Below, in pieces: positions 17,401-61,706 of a stretch of 64,000 nucleotides of DNA. Source of the stretch: Branchiostoma floridae (Eukaryota > Chordata > Leptocardii > Amphioxiformes > Branchiostomatidae); the NCBI RefSeq assembly GCF_000003815.2, contig NC_049988.1, positions 16,787,166-16,851,165 on the forward strand, in the 5' to 3' direction. The stretch's first letter is position 1. Each line of letters opens with the position of its first letter. The notes beneath the pieces are model-generated. The model had not been told where the DNA came from. It saw only the letters and a list, made by a program, of their open reading frames with translations, and did not search any database. The position numbers and the translations under genes were made by a program.

Positions 17401-20400
17401 CGTTTTTGGAGTGGAGTAAGAAATAATTATGTCTCGATATGCAGCTTGTACTATTCAGCACAAACCTGGAGTGTTATGCCTTGAGGCGGATATACACAGA
17501 AACAAACAAAGAAATGTAGCCATTTCTCTGTAAAATTATGTAGCACTACTCTGTAAAATCATGTACTACTGTAAGTCTACTACCCTTCCAATTCTAACAA
17601 GAAATCTGCCCATCGATCATGAATTAGCAATGTCATGGAGTGGTCAGGAAAAGGCAGTCCAGCTGACCAAACTGGCTGATGACCCGAAGAGGAGAAATAT
17701 TGTCATATATAACTTGTTAAAAATTTTGAAGTTAGCTTTAGAGTTTCTGCATGCAGGTACATGTAGTACAACTATGACAGTACTTACATTGTAGAGATGT
17801 CTGTCTGTGTGGAGGTTGTACCACTGTACTTACATTGTAGAGATGTCTGTCTGTATGGAGGTTGTACCACTGTACTTACATTGTAGAGATGTCTGTCTGT
17901 ATGGAGGTTGTACCACAGTACTAACATTGTAGAGATGTCTGTCTGTATGGAGGTTGTACCACTGTACTTACATTGTAGAGATGTCTGTCTGTATGGAGGT
18001 TGTACCACTGTACTTACATTGTAGAGATGTCTGTCTGTATGGAGGTTGTACCACAGTACTTACATTGTACAGATGTCTGTCTGTATGGAGGTTGTACCAC
18101 TGTACTTACATTGTAGAGATGTCTGTCTGTGTGGAGGTTGTACCACTGTAGATGCCCAGGCCTCCCGTTCAGTACCAAGGTGTGACTGCGAGGGTCCATC
18201 AGGAGTCCAGTAGGTACAGGGTTCGGAGATCTGATCAACTGGGGGATGTGAACTGGAGAAAACACAGTTATAGGTTTAGAAAAGAAAAACATGTACGTCT
18301 GACAAGTTGCCCAAAATCGCCCTAAGCCCTAGCAATCGCCAGGACATTGGTCATAATAATTTGGCCAAAAATGCCAGCTTTTTGGAGCATTGGCCAAGCT
18401 CGGTTGACTTCTTGATTTGTGATGGGGGCTTTACGAATTCGTACTCAGAACCTCCAGACTTAAGGTTACTCATAAGCCTTGTGACCCCGCGCTGGGAGGG
18501 TCAGGGGTTTAGTCTCTTCTAAACGCTCTAGCGTTTGCAGTTTTGAACCTAAGCCCATGAAATTCACACACAATACATAAAAACATGTTAGAATTTCTAC
18601 TATGTTGATATCTTGGGCAGGTTATGGATAATTTATTAAGAAAATGGCATCAAAAATGAACTTCCGGGATAGAAAGCCGCTATACGATTGGGACAAATAT
18701 AGTGCCTGAAAACATGCAAAACTTGCCAAAAACTTGGTCACAAACAATAACCTATGTACCAACACATGTACTCATTGTATTATTGTAGTTATATTTTACC
18801 AAATATAAAAGAAAATCAAGGAAAAATGCTTGATTTTCTTCCAAAACTTCGCGCGGTGTGGCAAGCTCTTGCTTTCACAGAGTCCTCATTCAAATCTGCA
18901 GGCACTCGGCTTACATGTTACTAATCACCACTTGGTCTTTCCATATAAGGCATGGCCCCAAGGAATACCGAGAATTAATGTCCCAAAAAGAAAGGTTTCT
19001 GTTGGCTTACGGCTCTCCGAATCCTCCCCGAATCCTCCCGAAGGTTAATGAGGTGTCAATCACATACACTAGGAGAACCCCTGGGACAAGCAAGCCTCTT
19101 CCGCCCGGCATGCTATCCACACACATGTTGTGGATTACGTACTAAGAGCTACCACTGAAAACTGTGGAAAACACTGTAAAGAAAAGACAATACTAGGTAT
19201 TTTATATGACTAAAAAGGTCCAAGAAGTTTTAGACTCTGTAGCATGTAATAGTATTGTGTTTGTATGAGAACTATAGCCTTTCAGAAGCTCTGTGGCAGT
19301 CTGTTGACTGATTGGCTGTAGTTTTCTCCTTACTGTGGGCTATACCAAATGTATCCAAAGATGGAAAGAAAATAAGTACAGATTTATTGAATCGTGGTGT
19401 TTTGTGTATTTACTTTCATGTAATAGGTGTGTAGATGTTTTTACTAATACATGCTTAAAAATTCAATCATATTTTATAAGTTTTAATACAGATATAAAAG
19501 CATGCCTATCTCCTCTATGTTGGAGTTTCCCTGCATATTTGATCAAGTGTGCATGTCCTGGACCTGTAGTATTGTCACTCACTCATTCATGGCCCACATC
19601 ATACAGGTCGAGAAATATTCCAATGGAAAGGTAGATACACGCTGATTTGTGCCACAACCTCTCTGATTTTATAGTAATTTGGTACATAAAGTGGTATTAT
19701 GCTTTCCAAGTTGCATTTCAACCAAAGAAACCAAGCATGATATACGACCCGACCGACCCTACCTCTGCACCACAGGTGGTACAGCTTGTCACCGCCCAGG
19801 CCAGCAGGGCAAGATCTGATAAGGCCTGGCCTGGCCACTTTGGGGGAACTCGGAAATCGGTTCCACATGAGTGATTCTCTCCCTTATGAGTAACCTTAAG
19901 TTAACAACCATAACCACTAGACCTCTCTGCCACCTTCCAAATTGTTAAAACCCTATGTCTTAAAGCAGCATTGAGCCAGTGGTTGGACACTGATTTTAGT
20001 ACAAACATGCATATAGAGCTTTATAGCCTATTCAAACAATAACTAACTTTTGGTGGCTACTATTCACCATACTATGTTATAAAAAAAACTCCAAGAAACT
20101 CCAGGAGTTAAGGAAGCTTGCAGAATTCAAAGCACAGTAGAAAAAGGTGAAGAAAGACTGAATGCAGCTAAAAGACTATAGATGCAGAATGCAGTGAATG
20201 ATGATAATGATGATGATGATGTTATAAAAAAATGTAAGAATTCACCTCTAGTGAGTCCCTGGAACACTTGTACCACCTTATTACTCCTGGTAACTATTTG
20301 GACCACTGGAAAGAAACAACACACAGAAAAAAAAAAGCTATCATAATGAATTATAAAATGACACATAAGACATAGCAAGTAATGTATACAGTCCCATAAT

Positions 20401-33589: not shown

Positions 33590-34525
33590 TCAGATAGATG
33601 TGCAACCGCTAGGTACGACAGGTCGTTCAGTGTAATATAACCAGCTGCTGCCACGCCGCGGTCCTGCGAAGCTGGTGTGTCACGCCGAAGGGCGGTTATA
33701 CCGACTATATAGATACAGATACAGAAGCTGGTGTGTTACGCCGAAGGGCGGTTATACTAGTGCCGGCTATATAGATACAGATACAGAAGCTGGTGTGTTA
33801 CGCCGAAGGGCGGTTATACCGGCTATATGGATACAGATACAGATGCTGGTGTGTTACGCCGAAGGGCGGTTATACTAGTACCGGCTATATAGATACAGAT
33901 ACAGAAGCTGGTGTGTTACGCCGAAGGGCGGTTATACCGACTATATAGATACAGATACAGAAGCTGGTGTGTTACGCCAAAGGGCGGTTATACTAGTGCC
34001 GGCTATATAGATACAGATACAGAAGCTGGTGTGTTACGCCGAAGGGCGGTTATACCGGCTATATAGATACAGATACAGAAGCTGGTGTGTTACGTCGAAG
34101 GGCGGTTATACCGGCTATATAGATACAGATACAGAAGCTGGTGTGTTACGTCGAAGGGCGGTTATACCGGCTATATAGATACAGATACAGAAGCTGGTGT
34201 GTTACGTCGAAGGGCGGTTATACCGGCTATATAGATACAGATACAGAAGCTGGTGTGTTACGTCGAAGGGCGGTTATACCGGCTATATAGATACAGATCG
34301 ATACAGAAGCTGGTGTGTTACGCCGAAGGGCGGTTATACCGGCTATATAGATACAGATACAGAAGCTGGTGTGTTACGCCGAAGGGCGGATATACCGGCT
34401 ATATTATATAGCTACTGATACAGAAGCGGTGTGTTACGTCGAAGAGCGGTTATAGCGGCTATATAGATACAGATACAGAAGCTGGTGTGTTACGCCGAAG
34501 AGCGGTTATACCGGCTATGTAACGT
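33590..34525 (+). repeat. 15-copy tandem array of a LINE 3' tail (56-62 bp units)
   Basis: A LINE tail starts near 33590 (GTCGTTCAGTGTAATATAACC, as at 11000). From 33671 the unit GCTGGTGTGTTACGCCGAAG, then GGCGGTTATACCGGCTATATA, then GATACAGATACAGAA, recurs at 33671, 33727, 33789, 33845, 33907, 33963, 34025, 34081, 34137, 34193, 34249, 34309, 34365, ~34425 and 34481. Most units are 56 bp. Some carry a 6-bp insert (CTAGTG) and are 62 bp. Long frames through it are artefacts of the array. Confidence 0.93.
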
Positions 34526-42351: not shown

Positions 42352-45300
42352 ATGCTTCGCTGTTGTCTGACGGTGGTTTTCGTCGTTGGTTTGTCTTCAG
42401 ATTTTCTTCAGTGTGATGCTGGTATGGCCATCACTGGGGTAAGTTGTGAAGAATTTTGTTCATTCGTTTTTCTGTTTGTAGTTCTAAATCAATTCTTAGT
42501 ACATATAGTGCGATCAAGTTCTTCGAACAAGACATTGCTTATGATATTCCTCACAATATGCCTGAAATAATCAGCACCTCGTCTTCGCGAATTCGTTTTG
42601 TTTCTTCAAATCTATAAGAAAAACTACAAAACTGTAGCTAATGACACGTGGTTCATGGTGATAAATAAAGTTTTTTTGCAAATTCTTGCCCGTGGCTTAA
42701 TTGCAGGTAACATAAAAGATTCAAACAGTGTAATCACAATATCACAAGTGTCTACTCTAGTCTAAAGCTAGTTAAAAGCTAACTCTAGATCCTGGGTTAT
42801 TGGGTACGACTCCTTGATGATATGGCAAGATTCAAAATTCTATAGCGCTAGATCTAATTCAAACTGAGACACATTTGCGAGATAGTTGTACCGTATGTCG
42901 AAGATATCTTGAATTCAGTCTTGTTTTAGTTAGTGTGGCCATGTAGTCAACCCTGGATCTAGCGGTTCTGGGTTCAGATCTTCAGCGGGCCTGAAGTTGT
43001 GCTTAAGTTCCAAAGATCACAATATTGGGACCTTCCCGGGATTCGAACCCAGAATCTTCAGATTTGAAGTCAACAACCCAAAGGCTAGCATCACATTTTC
43101 ACAAAGCGACACAAACGGGCAGCTTTTGGGGAACGGAAAAGTACGATATAAAAGACGACAAGAACACAAAACGAACCAAAAATGATTCAACAGCATGTCT
43201 TGTGTATATCTATTTTTCGTTTCCGCGAACAGCCCGGTCGGGCCCCGGGAAATGTGACGAAGGCCTAGCCACAAAACCATCGCACTGTTAGGCTTATGTC
43301 CCAGCTTCCAACCCGGGAGCTTTCGGAAACGAAAAATAGGATATAAAAGGCAGAAAAACACACAGAACATAAACAAATTAGCCATGAGCATAATTTGTGT
43401 ATATTCATCGATAATCACTTTTATTATTCGTTTCCGAAAACATCCCGACCGGGCCCTATTTCGAAAATTCCAATTCGGGGCCCGGTCGCGATGTTTTAAG
43501 AAACAAAAAATTAAAAGGTATACCTAGAAATATACACAGGTCATACCCATGAATTTTGTTTTGACATTTTGTGTATTTTGACGTCTTTTATATAATTCTT
43601 TTTGCTCCCGAAAGAGGTCCGGCTATGTCCCAGTTTGGAAATGTGACCTAAGACTAACATGGGCCTGACCACAAGTCGATGGCACCACTGATGTTTCTGT
43701 CTGTTTGCTTGTTTCAGGTGTGCAGCACGGATGAAGACTGCATCGCGACCCGGGGAGGGGGGTGCTGTGTGAAGTGGAACCCAGGTTCAGCAATACGAGT
43801 AAGTCGAAGTCTAAACAGTTAAGACGTAAGTGGCGTCTGGCGTGGCGTAACTGGTAGAGCGTTCGGCTCGGAATCTATAGGTCCTGAGTTCGATACCCAC
43901 AATGCCCCCTATTTTGTACCCCTGGGAGAGCACTTTACACGACTTTCTTCACTTCACCCAGGTGTAAAAATGGGTACCTGACTTCGGTCGGCATTGTTAA
44001 TATAAATTACAAAACGTAAGTGCAGTGCCAGTCGTCTGTCCAAAAGTAAATAGAAAAAAGTCTAAACCGTTACGTTAGGCTCCATCAACGCATTCAGTAT
44101 ACCTTCCCAAGACTTTATTCTAGAGAATCTAGACCATTCTACAGCCAAGATAGGCATTGGAGTAGCCTGGAATCCACCCGATATTCTAGCTACAGTTTGC
44201 TTCCCATTTTCGATTTTTCAAAATCTATAGTTGAATGGCACAGACGGTTTCTAAAGACCAACTCCTGGTTAGTTTAAACGTCTTGTTTGTGCTATAGAAT
44301 ATCAACATAATACTTGGAGTGAATCGCATTTATTCCTGTATTACTTTTTGTACCGACAATCCTGTACTTTCGTTCGCAACACGACCCCAACTAGCCACCA
44401 ATATACCTACATGGAGATCAGAAGTATTGTTTAGTGTTACAAACCGATACATAACTACTTTATTCTTAGTAGAATTTGCCTGGAAATGACCTCCTTCTTG
44501 TTACCTTTCTCACCCGTGAATGTTACACACATTTTTTGTCTTTTTTTGTCTCTAAAATTCACATGAAATTTCCTTTCTCTCAGGTGTGTAAGGAGATGGG
44601 TAGAGAAGGTAACGCCTGTCATGTGTCGGGTAATGTCCTGCCGTACCCGTTCGAGGGGAACCGGGTGTACTGGCGCTGCCCTTGTCGGGAGGGCCTGACG
44701 TGTAAGGCCGACGGGGAGTCAAGGTGGGTCCGGTCAGATTTTTGCTCCGTGGGGTAGCGCTGGTGCAAGGTGTTAGAGCTAGAGCTAGAGCTAGAGCTAG
44801 AGCTAGAGCTAGAGCTAGAGCTAGAGCTAGAGCTAGAGCTAGAGCTAGAGCTAGAGCTAGAGCTAGAGCTAGAGCTAGAGCTAGAGCTAGAGCTAGAGCT
44901 AGAGCTAGAGCTAGAGCTAGAGCTAGAGCTAGAGCTGGAGGTAGGGCTTGAGCTAGAGCGTGGTTTTGGGCTAGAGCTAGGGCTAGGGATACAATGTAGG
45001 AATAGGGATATGGTTTGAACTAAGGCTGGAGTTATGGCTAGGGCTGTGGCTAGGGCTGTGGCTAGGGCTAGGGCTGTGGCTAGGGCTGTGGCTAGGGCTA
45101 GGGCTGTGGCTGTGGCTAGGGCTAGGGCTGTGGCTAGGGCTGTGGCTAGGGCTGTGGCTAGGGCTAGGGCTGTGGCTAGGGCTAGGGCTGTGGCTAGGGC
45201 TAGGGCTGTGGCTAGGGCTAGGGCTAGGGCTAGGGCTAGGGCTAGGGCTAGGGCTAGGGCTAGGGCTAGGGCTAGGGCTAGGGCTAGGGCTAGGGCTAGG

Positions 45301-45748
45301 GCTAGGGCTAGGGCTAGGGCTCAACGAATTTTAGAGATAAAGAACGAATTTTCTTACGCTTTGTGTATTTTGTCGCCTTCTAAGTCATACTATTACGTAT
45401 TACGCAATATCTAAACTATAAAAAATCGGAGAAAATAACAACACAGTGCCGCAATGAACGAACTCCGCAGTGCCGCACCGGTGCCCCAAGTGCAGTGAGA
45501 TCCCACTGTGGGCTATCTGACTTTATATCTAACACAAGGAATGCCTTTTATTTTAAGCGGGTCCATGACTTCTGTTTTAATATTCTAAGCTTGACAACAT
45601 TTTTTCTCGACGTTACAGAGAAGGAATTTGCGCAGCTGGCAACACCAAACGCAACGGACTAGGGGAGCGGCTGAACCGAAAGCTCGACATTTTTGACCGT
45701 GTCGCCGATCTCATGACGGAGGTGATGGAAGACTACGTGGACAACTAG
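42352..45748 (+). CDS. Prokineticin/AVIT-domain secreted protein 2
   Basis: Four exons, 42352-42438, 43718-43798, 44584-44723 and 45619-45748, give 146 codons (145 residues). Exon phases (0, 0, 2) are identical to those of protein 1. I chose the ATG at 42352 because it begins the hydrophobic signal sequence (MLRCCLTVVFVVGLSS). Exon 1 ends in MAITG. Ten cysteines follow in the same pattern: VCSTDEDC, GGGCCVKWNPGSAI, VCKEMGREGNACHVSGN, RVYWRCPCREGLTC and EGICAAG. KEMGREGNACH is very close to the vertebrate prokineticin loop. The tail differs from protein 1: it is a 35-residue amphipathic, acidic stretch (RKLDIFDRVADLMTEVMED). Intron 3 carries two large hexanucleotide arrays. Expected to be secreted and, by family, to act on a GPCR. 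Confidence 0.85.
43105..43655. repeat. Cluster of GGGCCCGGTCGGGA-type elements in intron 1
   Basis: Three related units: TTTTTCGTTTCCGCGAACAG, then CCCGGTCGGGCCC (~43210); TATTCGTTTCCGAAAACATC, then CCGACCGGGCCC (~43425); and the inverted GGGGCCCGGTCGCGATGTTT, then TAAGAAACAAAAA (~43477). Each is near a GATATAAAAG or TTTTATAT block. They look like nested inverted-repeat MITEs. Confidence 0.6.
43837..43998 (+). mobile_element. tRNA-derived SINE in intron 2
   Basis: The tRNA-like head is TGGCGTAACTGGTAGAGCG, then CCTGAGTTCGATACCC (A- and B-box positions). The body matches the other copies (TGTACCCCTGGGAGAGCACT, then TTCACCCAGGTGTAAAAATG and GGTACCTGACTTCGG). It lies 40 bases after exon 2. Confidence 0.75.
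44773..44940 (+). repeat. (GAGCTA)n hexanucleotide array
   Basis: About 27 near-perfect AGAGCT units beginning 50 bases after the exon 3 donor. AGAGCT can pair with itself (AGCTCT), so the array is partly self-complementary. Translated frames are pure dipeptide runs and not genes. Confidence 0.95.
45028..45321 (+). repeat. (GGGCTA)n / (GGGCTGTGGCTA)n array
   Basis: About 48 hexamers. The first part alternates GGGCTA with GGGCTGTGGCTA. The last ~110 bases are pure GGGCTA. The unit differs from the metazoan telomere repeat (TTAGGG) by one base. It is interstitial, not a chromosome end. Confidence 0.93.
45325..45512 (+). mobile_element. Right half of MITE B-type element fused to the hexamer array
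   Basis: ACGAATTTTCTTACGCTTTG, then TGTATTTTGTC and AACGAACTCCGCAGTGCCGC, then CCAAGTGCAGTGAGA, match the right half of 56343-56578 and the family of 41192-41437. The left half is missing, its place taken by the array. Confidence 0.7.
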
Positions 45749-46125: not shown

Positions 46126-47825
46126 ATTCGGCCATGTATGACATGTATATGAGACATGTAGACAATAGTTTAAGACCCACACATGAATGTGGCAGGCCAT
46201 TCAACATGTACATCTTATTCCATGGTTCTTTAGTTTTACCTTTAGTTTTACTGTCATTTCTGTGGTTCACAACATAGAATAATTTCGTCAGTAAAAATTT
46301 GGCAACCATTTTTGACTAGTACTGCACAGCTAACAACACAATTAATCTGATAAATGCTCTCTCTCGTTGGTGTGTGAGTTTCTCAAATTCGGGCAGTTTG
46401 CCTTTGTCTTGATAGAATGATGTCTATGTCATCAGCTTCAAGTATCATTATTAAACCATAATTAATCAATAAAACATAAATAAAAAATAGTACAGAATTG
46501 GCTTCTACAACCATATTCATCTCGACACTTTCTTCTCGTTTGGAGGTCGGGTAAAGTGTCTTTCAAAAGGCTGTTTTATAAAACAAAGGCGGGAAAGTGT
46601 TTTTGATTGTGGTTCAACGGGATTTTACAACCGTGTGAAGTATAATGGCAGACCAGGGTTAGCGCTTTGAAGTCTGCACGTAAGACACCACGTGTGCCAA
46701 ACATAGGAAAAGGGTGATCGTCTGGATCTTTTCTTTACATCTCAAACCTCACAGACCAGCTGCTTTAGTCTTCAAACGCAGTAAGAAATGGCCCACGATT
46801 TGTAGGAAATAATCCAAGGTCGGGAAATACGTGTTGAGCATAACTACGTGCACGAGTTAAGAGGAATTATCGAGATAAATCGGTATTACTTTCTATCAAT
46901 TAGAGCTACATTTTTGATTTCTTTATGTCTTTAGAAGATTACGAACTTTGGCTATTGAGGACATTTTAGTAGACAAAACGTAAGTGGAAAAACATTACCA
47001 TAATGCGGAGTGAGAGGGAGGGTAAAAAATTAAATGAAAGAATTTTCTAACGTTCTTCTTAATAGAAAAATTATCCGGGCCGAAAACAACAGCACACAAA
47101 CTGACACAAAATTATCTACAACATACGTCAATTAACCTGGTACTCTTGATATCACATTATCTTTCTGTAGGTGGATGGACAACCAAAAAATACAGCACCA
47201 ACAATCATGCTTCACAGTTTATTTCTCTTTCATGATCCAGCAATGAAACTTCTCAGTTGATAACATTACAGCTAGATATCCCAGGTGATATTTCACAATA
47301 TCTACCAGTTAATATTAGAGCTCAATGAAGCGGTAACAGATCCAAATCCTTGTTCTGTCTCGTTAACAGTCGCGTATCAGCATGCTCCGTCACTTATAAG
47401 GTATTTTAGCACATTCTGTACACAGAGTGATGTTTCGTGGTGTAGTTGGTTAGGGACTAGGGATGTGACTTTGTTTCTGTATTTTTTTACCATCTATCAT
47501 GACACTGTTTCTTGCATTTGAAACATCGCTTTACTAGTCTGATTAAACCTCGCTTATAGCAGTCCTCCTCGCCACACCCAGCCTCCTATACAGGGAGGAG
47601 AGAGTTACAGCCCCAGACAGCAGAGTTTGTGCTACAAAGACTATTCCTTTGCATACGTTTTTGCTTCTTGTCAGCACCCCCAAAGGTTATAAAACGCTCA
47701 GATATGTTATCAAGCGGTCCGCGATTTGGTGATGACCGTTTCAAATGGCAACGACCGTTTTTGGGAAAGACTCGAACATCGATCCGACGTCCAGCTCACG
47801 TAACCCATGACTCGAGTCAAGTACC
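46126..47825. other. Intergenic, nothing recognised
   Basis: AT-rich with no convincing coding sequence. AATAAA clusters near 46466-46485 could serve as distal polyadenylation signals of prokineticin-like gene 2. Confidence 0.45.
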
Positions 47826-48840
47826 TCATTGGGAGTCTGAGTTCGACCCTGAGTCCGACGCAGATCGCGTGTCTGAAAAGATATGAAAATGGAAATATTT
47901 CAGTGTGCATATTTCCAGGATCCGGTTTGTTGTTGTTGAGATAGCAACAAGAGGGAGAAAGGGAAAGGGTGAAGGGAGAGAGAGGGAGAAAGAGGTATGA
48001 GAAGGGAGAGAAAGGCAAAGGAAAAGAGGTAGAGCAGAGCAGATATTAGAGAAAGCAGAGAGTAAGAGAGAGAGGAACAGGAATAGGAAAATAGGGGGTA
48101 GAGATAGAGAGAAAGAGAGAATGAGAGGGAGAGAGGGGAAGAGAGAGAGATCCGTGTACAGATTGATGGGCATATGTAATGTACTCCACGGCCACGTCTA
48201 CGCAGAGAGAGAGAGACAGAGAGAGACACAGACAGACAGAGACAGAGACAGACACAGAGACACAGAGAGAGAGAGATCCGTGTACAAACAGATGGACATA
48301 AGTAATACACACCACGGCCACGTCTACGTCCACCGCCGCCTCCAAGTTGCGCACCGTCACGAACTCCCTCCCAGGGGGGTAGTTGGGCGCCTTCGCCGTC
48401 GCCGAGGTCGCGAGCCCCTCGGCCCTTCTCCGTCTCATCCCCAACAACCCCCCGACGCCGTGTTTTGCCGCCCCCGGGCCTACGGCCTCCCTGAGCTGCG
48501 TCACCGAGCTCGCGAACCCCACGGCCCTTCTCCGACGCATCTTCTTCAAGAACCCCGCGTCTTTTCCCGCCCCCACGGCCTTCCTCTGTTGCGTCACCGA
48601 GCTCGCAAACCCCTCGGCCATTCTCCGACGCATCTTCAAGAACCCCTCGGGTTTTTCCGCCTCCTACTTCTGCGGCGTCACCGAGGTCACGAACCTCACG
48701 GCTGCTCTTCTGCCCACGCGGAGGGGCCTCGCGCTTAATACGTATACGCCTGTTTCTGCTGGCGTCGGCGCTGTCCGAGAGAACGGCCGCCGCGATCACC
48801 AACACCAGGAGGATTCTCACGTGCATCCCCATGGCTCTGT
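47826..48840 (-). CDS. Novel secreted repeat protein S1 (paralogue of S2)
   Basis: I do not recognise a family. The start exon is 48313-48840 (ATG at 48830-48832, acceptor just upstream). A plausible last exon is 47826-47872. Together they give 188 residues. The start exon opens with MGMHVRILLVLVIAAAVLSD, a clear signal peptide nearly identical to that of S2. A furin-like RIKR follows, then four repeats of a two-part unit: EKGRGVRELGDA plus GGGKTRGVLEDAS (variants REVRDLGDAAEV, RGVCELGDATEE, RGARDLGDGEGA). The protein is Arg/Gly/Asp-rich with one cysteine. The donor (CCGTG then GTGTGT, phase 1) is conserved with S2. The last exon (short Ser/Asp-rich end) is the weakest part. Antisense frames are open too, but only this strand has the signal peptide and the conserved splice sites. 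Possible roles include a propeptide, matrix or mucus protein; none is shown. Confidence 0.6.
47940..48290. repeat. GA-rich low-complexity DNA and duplicated exon-end block
   Basis: (GAGAGG)n-type purine runs fill the S1 intron. The block ACGGCCACGTCTACG with an adjacent ATCCGTGTACA occurs twice (about 48188 and 48314), a local duplication of the S1 exon end. The distal copy reads GAGTAC instead of GTGTGT, so it has lost the donor. Confidence 0.75.
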
Positions 48841-48865
48841 CTGTAGGAGATGAGCAGCATTTAAT

Positions 48866-49270
48866 AATTAATGAACAGTACGTGCCTTAAAAGTGGCATA
48901 AGTGGAACTGGTTAAGCGAAGGGCATAACCCGCCGTACGCGCCAACTTGTGGGCAATCTTTTGGGATCCGTAAGTGGTAAGTACCGCCTCCGTACGAACT
49001 CGTAGGGAATCCGACGGATTTTTGAGCGCGCAGACACGCCGTAGAACTTTACGTGCAGGCAAAACTTTATCTGCCATCGGGCTGCGGATTCGCCCCCCGT
49101 ACGTGCCAGTACGGGTGACGCGCCTGCCCTGTACAGTCTGAACGTTTTCAGAAATACGTGGCGGACGTGGCCTCCAAAAAACGTACGGACAAATTGCACG
49201 TACGGCGGGTTGCGCCCTTAGCTTTAATGAACAGTACCTGCTTTAAAAAGTGGCACAAGTGGAACTGGTA
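48866..49270. repeat. Duplicated 45-bp flank around a TTAA-bounded inverted-repeat element (S1 intron)
   Basis: TTAATGAACAGTACGTGCC, then AAGTGGCATAAGTGGAACTG, at 48868-48911 recurs at 49225-49268. The element between them runs from TTAAGCGAAGGGCATAACCC, then GCCGTACG, to CGTACGGCGGGTTGCGCCCT, then TAGCTTTAA (48911-49226), with inverted ends bounded by TTAA. A right-end fragment of the same element is at 55912-55980. Confidence 0.7.
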
Positions 49271-49487
49271 ATACCCCCTTTCCACAAGGACGGCGCTCTC
49301 GCCCCGCACTCTCTGCGACATAAAATTTGATAGATCGCTCAATGAATGGAATAGAAAAAGAAACGGATTTCGCTGTCCTCTCAGTAAAACTTTTACATTT
49401 TGTATGATATGCCCAGTATGAAGTCAAAGATTACACATATTTTATTGAAGTGGCAGTGAGAGCGCCGTCTAGTGGAAAGGGAGCTTT
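49271..49487. mobile_element. Harbinger-like MITE A, second copy, TSD TAA
   Basis: Ends TACCCCCTTTCCACAAGGAC, then GGCGCTCTCGCC, and GCGCCGTCTAGTGGAAAGGG. The element is flanked by TAA. Internal blocks (AGATCGCTCAA, TTTTGTATGATAT) match the copy at 37109-37346. Confidence 0.8.
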
Positions 49488-49687
49488 AAACAACCCAATG
49501 CTTCAGAAGGACAATGACACTGGCATATGCACACTGAACAATCAGCAAACTTCGACACACTTAAATAATGAAAATTAAACGGGATACTTGAGTGACTGCC
49601 CTTGTTCACCTACTATATACTAACTACAAATTCAAGAGATATCCTTATTTCTAAATGAAACTTATTCATAAAGCCAAAACAACTTAC

Positions 49688-49909
49688 CAATCCGTCGAAA
49701 AACGTTCCCAGTAGGGCTGATAAAACAACTTTACAGTGTGTGGTGGGACGTCTGTAGTCGGTAGTGTGTTGATCAGAAGTATGAGATATGTATCCACAAG
49801 ACAGCAGGATATACGGCACTGCGACACAATGTGTACACAACAACACACAACCACCTGATAGGTGCGCAACGGAGCGATATTCCAACAGCGTTGTACATGT
49901 ACAAGGCCA
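49688..49909 (-). ncRNA. Probable 5' untranslated exon of S1
   Basis: About 220 bases are conserved with 55342-55555 upstream of S2: ACCTATCAGGTGGTTGTGTG, CCACACACTG, TACTGGGAACGTTTTTC. Both end at the same donor, GGATTG then GTAAGTT. The reading frame is not conserved between the copies, while the acceptor 8 bases before the S1/S2 start codons is, so this reads as a spliced 5' UTR exon. The exon's own 5' end is unknown. The intron-side conservation continues to about 49515. Confidence 0.55.
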
Positions 49910-51904
49910 CGTATAAAGGTTGATGTCCGGTCTTGTTGGTTATTACCGGTTAAGAATTTCGACGTCTGCAACTCTGCAGTCTTAAGGTTATGGGTTCGAA
50001 TCCTAGGTAGGTCTTAATGCTGTGCTCTTTCATTGGTAAATTAAAGGCACTTAATATCAATATCCTCACTCGTCTTGCTTCTAGCACGTGTGAATTGTTT
50101 ACTTTGATCATGACGATCGTGGCTGAACCAGTGCAATGACCGAGTGTGTAATGTGTTTGCCTTGCATTCTGTAGTTCGTGAGTTCAATTCCCGGCCGAGT
50201 CATACCAAAGAATTTTGAATTGGTGCATACTGCTTTCTTTGCTTAGCACTCAACATTCAGGAAAGAATATGGAAGTTGAACACACATCACTACCAGTGGA
50301 CTATCCCCTGCTGTAGTTATTTCACAACGTTATGTGGCCCAAGGCTACTGAAACGGGCCCTACGTACATACGAGACATCTAGCGGACTTTAACTGAATGG
50401 TCGTGGATCAACATAGACTTCAGAGGCCCGCATGTTCAATGTATGCCATATAGCTTTTCATCATCTTCACATCATTATTATCATTACTATATGCGCTTAT
50501 GAAACGTAGAAACATTGCAAGAGTCATTATAAAGCTCTAATCAATCTGTCTAGTAGTATAACAGGGCGGTTTTTAAACTTTGTTCTTGCAGAACGAAATT
50601 TTCAGCACTGTATTTTGTACACTGATCGATACGCTGTGTAAAATCAATTTTAAATTCTAAATAATAATCTTTATTGCAAATCAATGTGTTTGCTTATCGA
50701 TATGCAAAGGTGTATTTTGTACGATGTAGCAGGATTTGCAACGTGGATCACTGGTTTGGTATTCAAAATAAGATGTGTAAAGGGCCGAATCAGACATCAA
50801 ACCTTTAACGATTGGATTATTTTTCAAGTGTATGACTTACTCCATGACATTGTCTAACCTAATATGAATGATTTATATTATAAAAGAAAGCTGCTATGAA
50901 AATAACAAAAGCAGTACAGTAAGTTTACAAAATAAAGATCTGTCAATTACGTTCTGCAACAGTAACGTCTAAATCCTGTCGCAACGTTGATAAAATAAAC
51001 TTGCCAATCAGATAAATTGATTACAGTAGCCTTGAGGTTGAGGTTATTGACTCATCAGAACCTGGAGGTACTGAGTTCGAATCCCTGACAGCTTCTAGTG
51101 TTGTGCCTTTGGGAAAGGCACTTAACACCAATTTCTGACATTTCTTTATCCGACTCAGGTGAAAATGAGTACCTAGCTTTGGCTAGGGTCGTCCCTCAGA
51201 TAGGACGTCAAATGGAGGTCCCGTGTTTGAGAACAACCACACCTCGAGGACGTTAACTTATGGAAAAGAGAAAGGGTGTACCCAGGCGTGAGTAGATCAG
51301 GTAAATTTGTACAGATATACAGCTTCTAGTACTGTTCAGTAAAAACCTGGTATGTTACGCCATCTGGCGTTTTGTTACCGGGTATGCAGTATAAACAAGA
51401 AGAAACATGATAACTCTAATTTCTTTAGAGACTCTAAAGATAGGAAGAAATCTTAATTGACGCGACAAAAGTACGGCGACTTTCGTAAGTTCTACATGTA
51501 TACAGCTCTGTATCTGGACTTTGCTCGGCCATTGTCATAATGAGAAACAAACAAAAACAACACAAGATTCAGCTTGACTCTTCGAGAGGTTTTATTTACC
51601 CTTTCAGCAGCGGCAATGATTATTATAAGTTTGGTCATCCTTGTTCTTGCTTTCAAGCGCTCATTCCATTCTTGTTATTTGAAGAACATTATATGGCGAT
51701 TTAAATGCCAGCAATGTTTCTCTATTTCTTTCGTATCTTAAATTCTTTTCTAATATATGTATATCTATAATGTAAAGAGAGACCTGACAGAAACATATGT
51801 TTGCGTTTCATACCTTCAGTAAGTACTGTCTATGTTGTGCTTATACTAGAATTTTAATCAACCGTGAATATATTGAAAGCAGTGTATCGCATAAAGCTCA
51901 ATTC
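49910..51904. other. Intergenic between S1 and S2, SINE-rich
   Basis: SINE-like B-box blocks occur at about 49985 (GGGTTCGAATCCTAGG), 50190 (GAGTTCAATTCCCGGCC) and 51075 (GAGTTCGAATCCC). No gene is seen. Sequence 50230-51000 has no recognised feature. Confidence 0.5.
51030..51415 (+). mobile_element. SINE with LINE-like 3' tail
   Basis: The tRNA-like B box (GTACTGAGTTCGAATCCC) is followed by the common body (GTGCCTTTGGGAAAGGCACT, GACTCAGGTGAAAATGAGTA, GTCGTCCCTCAGATAGGACG). It ends with CTGTTCAGTAAAAACCTGGT, then ATGTTACGCCATCTGGCG, a diverged form of the LINE tail at 10905-11185. Confidence 0.7.
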
Positions 51905-52672
51905 CCATGATCGTCGCTAGGTGGCGTCTTTTGATCGTCAAGCGGTCGGTGCCCAAAAAGATCATGCCAACGATTTCTGTATAAAAAGAAAAGAAGTTGT
52001 CAGATATAACCGCAATCATCTGGAGCAAAGAATCTGTCCTGTTTGTACTTCAAATACAACAGAAGATGAAGTGCACTTCGTCATGATTTGTGGTCTGTAT
52101 GTTAGCGATGAAATATCCCCTAAGTTATACATGTATGGGACATAAATTCCATAAGTTTACATATATACACCACTGAAAAATCTTGTGCAGTTTGGTGTCT
52201 ATTACAACATATTTTTCATTCCCGAAAGCTGCTCGGCTGGCGCATGGTCTCCACTTTTTCTGCGATGAAATAGACACATTTATATATCTATATCTATCAA
52301 TGAATCTATATCTATCTATCTATATATTTATCATATAACAATGAATTATATGTAGCAGCACAAAAATAACTCGGTTTACTCATCACCAAAAAAGAGACGT
52401 ACTAGTAAGGATCTGACGCGTCTCCGATACAAGATTGATAAAGAAGATGATAGACAATTTCTACAGATCATAATGGTTTTATTGTATATAACCCTCTGAC
52501 CTCATGACTTCTTGACTTTATGTACATATATGTATTTGTATCTGTTTTGAGTGTATGTTATCTGTCCATCCACTTGTACAATGTATATACTGTGTGTGTT
52601 TTCTAATGAGCCCTGGAAGATTAGCTCAATGAGCTAAAGGGTATCACAATAAACTCAATAAACTCAAACTCA
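51905..52672 (+). mobile_element. LINE: RT-ORF tail and 3' end, abutting S2
   Basis: The + strand encodes EVVRYNRNHLEQRICPVCTS, then NTTEDEVHFVMIC, the zinc-knuckle-like C-terminus of non-LTR retrotransposon ORF2. An AT-rich 3' UTR runs to GGAAGATTAGCTCAATGAGC, then AATAAACTCAATAAACTC. The copy ends about 25 bases beyond the S2 stop codon, in antisense orientation to S2. Confidence 0.8.
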
Positions 52673-52697
52673 CGCGGCCACATCCCAAGGAAACGTA

Positions 52698-54177
52698 TCA
52701 ACCCTGCGGTGGCGGTTCCGCCATGGACTCGCGACGTCCGCGACCGCCGCTACTGGGTGGAGGTTGTGGGGGTTGCAACTCCCGCTGGTTACGCTCCGCT
52801 ACGACGGTGTCGGGAGACGAGCGACCTCCACGTCGGTGGGGCGGTTGTGGTTCCGCCATGGAGTTGCGACGCCCGCGACTGCCGCTACCAGGCGGAGGTG
52901 GTGGTGGTGGCGGCAAATCCCTCGGGATACGCTTCTCTGCGTCGGCGTCGGCAGCCGAGCGACCTCCGCGACGGCGAGGCGGTTGCGCCATGGACTCGCG
53001 ACGTCCGCGACCGCCACTACTTGGAGGAGGTGGTGGTTCGGCCGCGTCCAGATCCCTCGTTGACCTGCCGCCTGTGCTCAGACAAGGAACAACAAATGAC
53101 AATGGAATCTTGTATTTTGATTAGTATTAGCTTACTTAGTGAAGGGGGGCTTGTAAAAACCATGCAGGCTTCTGCCCTCCTCCGGCACTTTTCTTTACTT
53201 CTCCTTACTATATTGATATTGTTTTTTATGCGCAAAATTACAAACCAACAAACTGAATTCATAGGAACACAAGATAGACAGAGGGAAGAACGCTAGAAAA
53301 GGGGAGAGAAAAAGATGCAAAAGGGAAGAGACAGATAGGAGGAGAGAGAGGGAGCGATTGATGAGAGAGAGAGAGAGAGAGAGAGACTGTGCATGAGAGC
53401 ATAGACGCGTCATACTGACGTATAGATAAATGCCCAAGTCCTACCACTAAGACCAAATGTTACAACAGAGAGAGACAGATAGGGGGAAGAGATATTCATG
53501 TGTAGATACATGATGAGCTGGCCATGTGCAATATACACCAGCTGAATTGGCGTCATAAATTACACGACGACGGAGAGTTTCGTCACGCTCACCTTCGACT
53601 TCTGCGGCGTCGCCGACGTCGCGAACCCCGCGTCCTCTCTCCGTCTCATCCACAACAATCCAGCGTCTGTTTCCCCGACGTGGGACGCCTCCATGGCCGA
53701 ATCCACGACCACGGCTGTCTACACGGCCGAATCCGATACGGCCTCGACGGCCTCCGACACGGCCGTCTCCACCGCCGTCTCCACCGCCGCCTCTACCGCC
53801 GCCTCCACCGCCGCCTGGCACTTGTGTGGCGTCACGAACGTCACGAATTCTTCCCCAGGGGCGCCTGGCGCCCTCGCCGTCACCGAGGTCGCGAACTCCG
53901 CGTCCTCCACGGCCGTATCCTGCCCAGCTCGCTACATCTGCGGCTTCACCAACGATCTCACGAACCCCGCGACCGTCCTCCGTCTCATCACGGCCTCCTT
54001 GTGTTGCGTCACCCAGGTCACGAGTCGCCCGGCCGTTCTCAGACCCGATTTCACCCGGATAACCGTACCCGCCGTGCCCCCCACCCCCATGTCCGTCCTG
54101 CCCATCGCCGGCCGAGAGAACGGCCGCCGCGATCACCAACGCCAAGAGGATTCTCATGTGCATCCCCATGGCTCCTC
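52698..54177 (-). CDS. Novel secreted repeat protein S2 (paralogue of S1)
   Basis: No family recognised. The start exon is 53539-54177 (ATG at 54167-54169) and the last exon 52698-53071. The junction phase (1 to 1) keeps frame and gives 334 residues. The N-terminus MGMHMRILLALVIAAAVLSA is a signal peptide with two differences from S1 over that stretch. A Gly/His-rich segment (GGGGHGGYGYPGE) follows. Repeats include NGRATRDLGDATQGGR, DGRGVREIVGEA, GRGVRDLGDGEGARR and RGRGVRDVGDAAEVEG, with long Gly/Arg runs between. Exon 2 begins RSTRDLDAAE, the same motif, then has three ~35-45-residue units: a Pro run, GGRGRRESMAEP and RRGGRS. No cysteines. Many RR sites suggest proprotein processing, but this is inference. 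The high-GC antisense frames are judged shadows. Confidence 0.62.
53352..53390. repeat. (GA)n microsatellite
   Basis: Uninterrupted GAGAGA run in the S2 intron, at a position similar to the GA-rich sequence in the S1 intron. Confidence 0.8.
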
Positions 54178-54319
54178 CTGGAACATTTGAGCAGCATTAC
54201 ACGAATGTACAGTTATGAATAGATATAGTACATGTATCTGAATTTACCTTCTCCCTGCAGTCTAAAGCTTAGGTCCCAGTTGTGCCGGTGCCCGTCAGGG
54301 ATGTAGACCCGGCCGGGCG

Positions 54320-54345
54320 TCTATGTTTTTTTTTTTTTTTACTTC
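54320..54345. repeat. Poly(T) tract
   Basis: T16 in the S2 upstream intron; possibly the tail of an inserted retroposon on the minus strand. Confidence 0.6.
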
Positions 54346-54374
54346 GGTCAAAACTAAAAAAAATACATACTTCA

Positions 54375-54975
54375 GCCAACTACGACGTAATTTGACAAGG
54401 CACATCGTACTTGGACGAACAACGACATAGCTCAAATACACTTCACCGAGAACAAAATGTTAGTAACTTTTGAGCGTATCGCCATTTTGAAGACCAGAAG
54501 AATTCCCTGAGGGTAAGGATTTGGTGGCTTTAAACATAATATCAGGAGATATCAGTACATGCTTTCTAGAATGATAACTACGTGTCTACGTGTCGTACTA
54601 ACTAGACATGTATACGTAGCTTTACAAACCTTGTTCACAGCGGCAAAAGGCAGCCTCACTCCTTAACCTAATATCTGTACAGTAAACATGTCCTCACAAG
54701 ACAAAAGTTGCGACAACATTTTGAAGTGCAGGTCTGTCCTTGTAACACCCTGTCTGTTAATGCTGTCTAACCGGTAAACCCGTCTCTTCACATCATTTGA
54801 GCCTAAATGTCAAAGTTAAAGAACTGACGTGGGAAACGTAACGCTGTAATTGAGTCAGATGTATAGATCGTTAGCAACTACGACGTACTTTGGGAAGCTA
54901 AGAAGCCAGGTGTTTGAATCAAAGTACGTCGTAGTCCGCCCAAGTACGTCGTGACTTGTCAAATTACGTTGACTT
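54375..54975. repeat. Inverted-repeat element with ACGACGTA subterminal motifs
   Basis: ACTACGACGTAATTTGACAA, then CATCGTACTTGGACG, at 54380-54420 is mirrored near 54905-54970 by CGTCGTAGTCCGCCCAAGTA, then CGTCGTGACTTGTCAAATTA. It lies in the long intron between the S2 5' exon and its start exon. Confidence 0.6.
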
Positions 54976-55341
54976 TTGACCAGATGGCTGTGTGTGCATC
55001 AAGCTTTGGACTTAGAAGCCACATGAGGGCTCACCCCCAACCCCACCGTCCTGACGAGTGCACCAGAGAAATCATCTTCGACACCGAAGGACTATCAAGC
55101 AAGCATGTCTTGATAAGTGTCCTGAGCAAGGAAAATGGTGCGAACTACATGAAAGAGCAATTGCACTGGCATATGCACACTCAACCACCAGCAACTTCGA
55201 CACACGCAAAAAAATGAAAATGTAACTAGATATTCTAGGACTGCTCTCTTTCACCTATCATACATGTATGTACTTACTACGAATTACTTTCAAATATATC
55301 CTTATACATAGTGAAGATTACTTTTATCCAATAGAACTTAC

Positions 55342-55555
55342 CAATCCGCCGAAAGATGTTCCCAGTAGGACTGATAGAGCAACAGTGTGTGGTGGAACGT
55401 CTGTAATCGGTGTAGTGTTTTTGTCAGTAGTAGTGTCAGGTATCCACAACACAGAGAGGTATATCGAATAAATACTGTGTACAAAACAACACACAACCAC
55501 CTGATAGGTGCGCAATAGAGCGATATTCCAACAGTGCTGTACATGTACAAGGCCA
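55342..55555 (-). ncRNA. Probable 5' untranslated exon of S2
   Basis: Homologous to 49688-49909: CACCTGATAGGTGCGCAA, CGATATTCCAACAG, CCCAGTAGG, and the same donor GGATTG then GTAAGTT. Frames are not conserved. The MITE at 55556-55730 begins exactly where the homology stops, at what may be the exon start or proximal promoter. Confidence 0.55.
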
Positions 55556-55730: not shown

Positions 55731-55911
55731 CAAGGCCAATTTTACAAGTAAAGTTGTATTTTGTGCGATTTTTAGGGCGTCCGTACAAGCTTCCCGGTAT
55801 ATATTCCTTTCCCAGCATTTTTCCTTTTCCGGCATATTTTTCTTTCCCGGCGTATTCCCGGTTAATAATCGCGAATCCTCTAGCCACCATCCCTACCCCA
55901 GAAATACGTGG

Positions 55912-55982
55912 CGGACGTGACCTTAAAAAAAGTACGGACAAATTGCACGTACGGCGGGCTGTGCCCTTAGCTTAACCGAAGC
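55912..55982. repeat. Right-end fragment of the TTAA-bounded element of the S1 intron
   Basis: GAAATACGTGGCGGACGTG, then GTACGGACAAATTGCACGTA, then CGGCGGGCTGTGCCCTTAGC, TTAA, matches 49150-49226. Confidence 0.7.
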
Positions 55983-60164: not shown

Positions 60165-60170
60165 TTTATT
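60165..60170 (-). terminator. AATAAA overlapping the stop codon of prokineticin-like gene 3
   Basis: The minus-strand text GAATAAAG contains both the stop TAA and a perfect AATAAA. If used, the 3' UTR would be only some 15-25 bases. No other candidate was examined in detail. Confidence 0.4.
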
Positions 60171-61706
60171 CTATGTCATTACCCTGCGCCAGCGCCAGGT
60201 TGTCAAACGTGTCACAGTGGCCGATCTTGGCGGTCTCCGTGGCGGTGCAGCCGAGGGCCGGGCCGCAGGGACAGCGCCAGAAGGCCCTCGGTGCGTCCAG
60301 AGGGTACGGCATGAGGTTGCTGGAGATGTGACACTCGTCCCCGACGCGGCCCCTGGGCTTACACACGGCGATGCCGGAGCCGAGGTTCCACCGCGCACAG
60401 CACCAGTTCTCGCCTTTGTTCGCGATGCATTCGAAGTCACTGCGGCAGCCCTAGTGGGGTGAGAAACGTATAAAACGTTTAAGCATATTTGTTATAGCTT
60501 AAAGAGAAATTTATTAGAAAAATTTGTTGGAAAACACTGTGAGGCGAAATGAACAATATGATATATATATATAACATATACTGAGGCAACCCTAACATAT
60601 GGCGAGAAAAGCATATATTGGTTTGATCGTTTAGAGAGCAAACAAGTAGAAATCTTCTATAGGACAATTTTTACCTTTTTGGAAAACACAACGTCAAAAC
60701 AGAGGACTGTCAGGGTAAACGGACACTCCAGAATACACTTACATGTAGACAGTGCAAAAAAGAACACATCGTTAATGATGAACATAAGCTCGCTCTGAGA
60801 AATAAGCTACAGTAAAAGCGATCCAGTACAAAAAGAAATTGATAGCAAAACTGTATCATGAGCAAAAAATAGACAAAAAAGGCCAAGAAAGCAGGCTGCT
60901 GTGTACGTACGGTGAGAAAAAGGAAAGAAAGAGAGAGCGGACTTGTGAGACACACCAATAACAATACTTTGTAAATGTCTTTTTGCGCCTCTGCAATACA
61001 ATAACACTTCCTTGGGGGCAAGGTAACTGCAAATCAATCACCTGGCATGGAAATACTAACAATCATCCTTTTCTTATCATACTGTCTTACTAGTGAGAAA
61101 CAAAGGGAAGCAACAACAGCCGGAGAGACACATAGCCTAGTTGTCAGTTGGAGATATATGTCAAATTATCCTTCGCAGCATCGAGGAAGAAATTGAGAGG
61201 TTATGCAAGGTCCAACCTACATGGAATGCTCTATATGTTGCACTATTCAATAGAAATAGAAATAAATAAATATCATGAAAACCCATCCGCAATTCATCTA
61301 TGGTCTTTTGAGTAGATGCTTGCCAAAGTAGTAGGTCGGAAGCATGCACAGAAACAAATACAAGCACATGCACAAGTACACACGTACCCACAGACAAACC
61401 GACAATAAGGCGTCGCTCACGGATGAAATGAAAGTGACACCAGAATGGAAATAAAGAACTGCAGAATTGAAGCACAAACAAATACTATCTGAAGATTGGA
61501 AGTAAAAAGCAAAGACTAACAGTTACTGTAGAATGGAAAGAAAAGGCAAAGACTAGCAGTTACTGTAGAATGGAAAGAAAAGGCAAAGACGAACTGTAGA
61601 ATGGACGTAAAGGATAAAGACTCACCCCTGTTATAACTAGCGGAGATGCTACTTTGAACACCGCGGCAGCACACAACATGGACAGCTGTAGAATGATGGT
61701 CTTCAT
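60166..61706 (-). CDS. Prokineticin/AVIT-domain secreted protein 3
   Basis: Two exons, 61626-61706 and 60166-60450, give 122 codons (121 residues). Exon 1 encodes a signal peptide (MKTIILQLSMLCAAAVFKVA) and ends SPLVITG in phase 0, the closest of the three to AVITG. Exon 2 holds all ten cysteines: GCRSDFEC, NWCCARWNLGSGIAVCKPRG, GDECHISSN, FWRCPCGPALGC and GHCDTF. The CC pair is one residue further from the second cysteine than in proteins 1 and 2. Introns present in genes 1 and 2 inside this region are absent, so this copy has lost two introns. The tail is short and acidic, without the extensions of proteins 1 and 2. The stop TAA lies inside AATAAA (60165-60170). Compact size and motif make it the most prokineticin-like member. 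Confidence 0.88.
61490..61625. repeat. 37-bp tandem repeat abutting the exon 1 donor of prokineticin-like gene 3
   Basis: Units start AAAGACTAACAGTTACTGTA, then GAATGGAAAGAAAAGGC, and recur at about 61511 and 61548, then shortened. The array ends in AAAGACTCACC, which on the minus strand is the donor GTGAGTCTTT. Confidence 0.75.

Follow-up and report, generated by a model that had tools for sequence, protein, structure and literature searches.

What do two neighbouring minus-strand genes in Branchiostoma floridae, here called S1 and S2, encode? They lie within a 64,000-nucleotide stretch of DNA (the window), whose exons also include matches to models of WDR75, MYCBPAP and prokineticin, as would fit an animal genome. 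A sequence-only reading had described a duplicated pair of secreted repeat-protein genes outside known families, about 5.3 kb apart, which might specify either a multi-peptide precursor or a protein of the extracellular matrix or mucus. The predicted ATG codons are at 48832 (S1) and 54169 (S2) and are separated by 5,337 bp, in agreement with that description. Each gene would consist of a non-coding leader exon, an exon for the signal peptide and repeats, and a tail exon (Table 1). With the junctions that we prefer, the predicted proteins have 188 (S1) and 316 (S2) residues.

Table 1. Predicted features of the S1 and S2 genes; positions are those of the window.
Feature	Position	Strand	Description
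S1 exon 1 (putative, non-coding)	49688..49909	minus	conserved block = 49909-49830; donor 49687
Element in S1 intron 1	48913..49223	minus	inverted-repeat ends (GCTAAGGGC...)
S1 exon 2	48313..48840	minus	ATG 48832, signal peptide, four RDLGDA-type repeats, phase-1 donor 48312
S1 exon 3, frame of the sequence-only reading	47826..47872	minus	phase 1, TRSASDSGSNSDSQ stop, 15 residues; acceptor 47872 scores 5.8
S1 exon 3, alternative frame	47741..47872	minus	TRDLRRTQ...GLRELDVG...VVAI stop, two R-[DE]-L motifs; requires a phase-0 donor
AATAAA, possible S1 poly(A) signal	47218..47223	minus	pattern match only
S2 exon 1 (putative, non-coding)	55342..55555	minus	homology to S1 leader, donor 55341
S2 exon 2	53593..54177	minus	ATG 54169, signal peptide, Gly-rich and RDLGDA-type repeats, preferred phase-1 donor 53592
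S2 exon 3	52698..53071	minus	123-aa open frame, three ~44-aa repeats: Pro runs, GRGRR(E/N)SMA, R[DE]L; then TGA
AATAAA, possible S2 poly(A) signal	52478..52483	minus	~215 nt past stop; pattern match only

Comparison of S1 and S2 indicates that one minus-strand gene was duplicated in tandem and that the two copies have since diverged. BLAST homology between them starts at 49909 and 55555, extends over the leader block with its donor and into intron 1, and picks up again at the signal exon after a break within the intron. The leader blocks of 222 nt (S1) and 214 nt (S2) correspond to the upstream exon of about 220 bp proposed earlier, and both end at the same donor, GGATTG/GTAAGTT, which is located at 49687 and 55341 and scores 4.4 in either copy. 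The first 80 nt of this block are identical at 75 positions, and the remainder at 107 of 129 aligned nucleotides. Identity is 143/175 aligned nucleotides (82%) in the 5' stretch of intron 1, 28/37 (76%) in its final 40 nt, and 5/8 in the short interval between the acceptor and the ATG. The signal sequence from the ATG to codon 19, which specifies the near-identical peptide MGMH[V/M]RILL[V/A]LVIAAAVLS recognized before, is identical at 54 of 57 nucleotides, and the highest value among 2000 random pairs of 57-nt segments from the window is 0.68. The 60 nt that directly follow retain only 33 of 52 aligned nucleotides. The signal sequence has been conserved (95%) while the intron has drifted, and DNA identity drops immediately past the signal sequence. 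The mature chains encoded by exon 2 are still related, as their local alignment score of 174 is reached by none of 1000 shuffles (maximum 130).

The leader exon was also considered as a conserved upstream ORF, a candidate set aside after inspection by eye alone. The inverted-repeat element within S1 intron 1 sits between direct repeats of 46 nt that are 91% identical (window 48868-49269), and an end related to this element is also found at 55899-55973. Target-site duplications are usually shorter than 46 nt.

The splice sites were scored with assumed base frequencies rather than frequencies trained on this genome, on a scale where a value of 6 or more is attained by 28 of the window's 7932 GT sites. 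The acceptor that the two copies were said to have in common just before the start codon is present 8 nt ahead of each ATG, scoring 4.2 in S1 (48840) and only 0.4 in S2 (54177). A phase-1 donor after the repeat exon had likewise been assigned to both genes, and this assignment is acceptable for S1 (48312, score 3.0) and weak for S2 (53538, score -0.3). We prefer for S2 the donor GAAG/GTGAGC at 53592, which is located 54 nt upstream, is also in phase 1 and scores 7.2; use of 53538 would add 18 residues. The frame into S2 exon 3 (acceptor 53071, score 4.9) is kept from either donor. This exon begins with GRSTRDLDAAE, resembling GRATRDLGDAT of exon 2, and the score of its protein alignment with S2 exon 2 is reached by 1 of 1000 shuffles; its alignment with S1 exon 2 is not significant (78/1000). 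A tblastn match between S2 exons 3 and 2 (E 0.006, composition correction off) was discarded as evidence, because seven plus-strand low-complexity matches outrank it.

The last exon of S1 is ambiguous between the ends 47826 and 47741. The frame of the sequence-only reading aligns with S2 exon 3 no better than shuffled sequences do (243/1000 reach its score). The alternative frame carries a combination that is rare in the window, where 9 of 16325 overlapping stop-free stretches starting outside exons have at least two R-[DE]-L motifs per 43 aa. As an S2-like tail, this motif-bearing version was rejected, since its alignments are also within shuffles (294/1000 against S2 exon 3, 59/1000 against exon 2). 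No good phase-0 donor for it was found near the end of the S1 repeat exon, where the best candidate scores -4.9, and use of the phase-0 donors with higher scores (48820, 48694 and 48667) would delete most of the repeats. Points against the overall gene model include the weak S2 acceptor and the lack of a significant alignment of either S1 tail with S2. A 63-nt stretch over the end of the S1 repeat exon and its donor recurs in the intron with 87% identity (window 48140-48328), and the unspliced S1 frame is open for 310 codons.

Several observations bear on whether these frames are translated. Seven aligned RDLGDA units differ in pairwise comparisons at 61, 103 and 155 sites by codon position, and dN is less than dS in 20 of the 21 non-independent pairs. 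The same holds for the S2 exon 3 repeats in 3/3 pairs and 1/1 pair of two alignments. Column shuffling was applied to two overlapping seven-unit sets and to the three repeats of S2 exon 3. The mean substitution score observed for changed codons is attained in 26/2000, 6/2000 and 3/2000 shuffles, respectively. The repeat copies vary in the manner of coding sequence. It had been suggested that a dN/dS near 1 between the copies would count against the proposed frame, and here the outcome is mixed: the repeat units favour the frame, and the signal region has a dN of 0.090 and a dS of 0.066, values that rest on 21 codons and five changes, such that purifying selection is not shown by this measure.

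One might consider that the plus strand is the coding strand, mirrored by the frames on the minus strand, given that stop-to-stop frames of 245, 238 and 223 aa are present there. Moreover, the mirror frame scores 1.12 versus 1.11 for the minus frame in the first set of repeat units, and 0.93 versus 1.21 in the second. In S2 exon 3, however, the minus frame wins with 2.45 versus 1.00, and only this exon separates the strands so clearly. A rule for a hydrophobic leader, which is a simple hydropathy rule of our own and not a trained predictor, selects 5 of the 67 ATGs in the window that open ORFs of at least 80 aa on both strands, and all five are nested S1 or S2 start codons. The rule is thus passed on the minus strand only, and usable splice sites also lie there, in site lists that for this region cover the minus strand. 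We regard coding by the plus strand as highly improbable.

Another explanation is that the copies are decaying or non-functional, with a proper tail missing from S1 at least, or with no translation of either gene. S1 lacks a convincing tail in either frame, several splice sites are weak, and the intron is rich in microsatellites. Nevertheless, the greater identity of the signal sequence relative to both intron stretches, the open repeat frames and their coding-type variation argue against this, and decay is considered unlikely.

The predicted mature chains contain 23-24% Gly and 17% Arg, with a GRAVY of about -1.3 and pI values of 10.1 (S1) and 11.1 (S2). The net charge is only +5.8 (S1) and +10.2 (S2), since the basic residues are counterbalanced by acidic ones. 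Charged residues make up 0.39 of S1 and 0.31 of S2. Charges in S1 cluster more than in shuffled chains (494/500 lower or equal), and S2 shows the same tendency weakly (457/500). Judged from composition alone, the proteins would be disordered. Cysteine is almost absent, as previously noted, with one residue in mature S1 and none in mature S2. The repeats described around GVRDLGDA and GVRELGDA are also evident, with copies of the RDLGDA/RELGDA type in both proteins. The more general motif R-[DE]-[LIV], which was chosen only after the proteins had been read, occurs 4 times in S1 where 0.6 are expected (4/5000 shuffles reach this count) and 8 times in S2 where 0.7 are expected (0/5000).

Searches among known families returned little. 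For S1 exon 2 (174 aa), no Pfam model reaches its cut-off, and the best is DUF5974 (E 0.21, 12 bits vs 38.5); S2 (334 aa, with the junction at 53538) has no Pfam match. A PDB search with S2 only yielded nothing significant (best E 0.5), and five motif and signal-peptide strings have no occurrence in a literature text search. Back-translation scans gave 7 pattern matches for S1 exon 2 in viral contigs and 182 for S2 exon 3 in bacterial and archaeal genomes, with no relative among them, in collections that are not meant for animals. Within the libraries searched (Pfam for both proteins, PDB for S2), and together with the leader rule and the mature alignment, these results support the original description of a duplicated secreted pair outside known families. 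S1 and S2 probably encode secreted, disordered repeat proteins with no known family among those searched.

The proposal of a multi-peptide precursor, in which convertase cleavage at basic pairs would yield several bioactive peptides, can be examined through these chains. Multicopy neuropeptide precursors resemble S1 and S2 in having a leader, internal repeats and basic sites. Many RR, KR and GR sites had indeed been noted, of which RR and KR match the composition and only GR is in excess, and in S2 only (21 vs 12.1 expected; 12/5000 shuffles). Basic pairs number 9 in S1 versus 7.3 expected (1403/5000 shuffles reach this count) and 11 in S2 versus 8.7 (1126/5000). Likewise, RX[KR]R is not over-represented (1218/5000 for S1, 798/5000 for S2), and neither is G-[KR]-[KR], with 3 sites in S1 and 4 in S2 (1175/5000, 775/5000). 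Over 13 motif copies there is no fixed distance to a basic pair, which is found 2-41 residues upstream (three copies have none) and 6-49 residues downstream. Cuts at basic sites would release pieces that span 4 to 80 residues. Thus, unlike in the known precursors, the cleavage sites are neither enriched nor in register with the motif repeat: the signal peptide expected of a neuropeptide precursor is predicted by the hydropathy rule, and convertase flanks in constant register are absent from the motif repeats. Since the basic pairs do not exceed composition and hold no fixed register, the precursor idea loses its main support.

What still speaks for such a precursor, besides the leader and the repeats, is the presence of the G-[KR]-[KR] sites, of RNRR and RIKR in S1, with RIKR near its start, and of RGRR in all three repeats of the S2 tail. 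Because RGRR is regular there (3/3 repeats), furin may trim the S2 tail. Overall, we consider the release of several bioactive peptides doubtful. Granins are also secreted and disordered with basic pairs, but they are acidic, whereas S1 and S2 have basic pI values.

The basic pI raises the possibility of a secreted Gly/Arg-rich defence protein. The Gly-rich N-terminus of S2 and the duplication and divergence of the genes are in line with this function, which is nonetheless distinctly unlikely given the small net charge of both chains and the absence of a Pfam match.

The reading that we favour, with a probability of roughly 0.45, is that the product is a charged, glycine-rich chain that acts in bulk in an extracellular gel, mucus or matrix. 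The chains would be secreted and remain disordered, and their function would arise from composition, through numerous weak contacts between the charges of different chains, whose charged fraction is 31-39%. The proteins may undergo furin trimming at the RIKR site near the S1 start and at the three RGRR sites of the S2 tail. Secreted low-complexity disordered proteins of matrix, mucus or adhesives have a leader, Gly-rich repeats, few cysteines and a constraint on composition instead of on a fold. S1 and S2 have a predicted signal peptide and a low-complexity, cysteine-poor chain, and they differ from this class in lacking a Pfam match, in carrying their own R-[DE]-[LIV] motif and in having nearly balanced charges. 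What can be read directly from the DNA is the duplication, a hydrophobic start that resembles a leader, and the repeated R-[DE]-[LIV] in a cysteine-poor chain rich in Gly, Arg and acidic residues; the matrix or mucus reading fits this composition, as would several other uses.

A more speculative version, which we think unlikely to be correct, is that the pair represents a new animal family in which the short R-[DE]-[LIV] motif, repeated along a charged and disordered chain, would serve for binding or self-assembly. As the paralogues place this motif on two backbones, one rich in Gly and Glu and the other in Gly and Pro, it might then be tuned for two materials.

The surroundings of the pair include several other features. 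Prokineticin-type exons flank S1 and S2 at 60169-60450 (minus strand) and 44473-44754 (plus strand), with Pfam Prokineticin E values of 1.6e-9 and 5.2e-7; a third, suspected by eye near 38.1-38.6 kb, gave no match with the two ORFs tried. Just past one of the prokineticin-type exons is a hexamer array (44774-45321) of 548 bp and ~91 units, which begins with TAGAGC and has the consensus TAGGGC. Other tandem arrays are located at 33668-34518 (56-bp units, 14.7 copies) and 17780-18150 (46-bp units, 8.1 copies).

Secreted low-complexity genes without an assigned family are common in animal genomes, and S1 and S2 are therefore a familiar kind of gene. If expressed, they would be of local interest to annotators of this genome and would offer a clean view of the divergence of secreted disordered proteins after a duplication, in which the repeat chain is remodelled and the signal sequence is conserved together with part of the leader.
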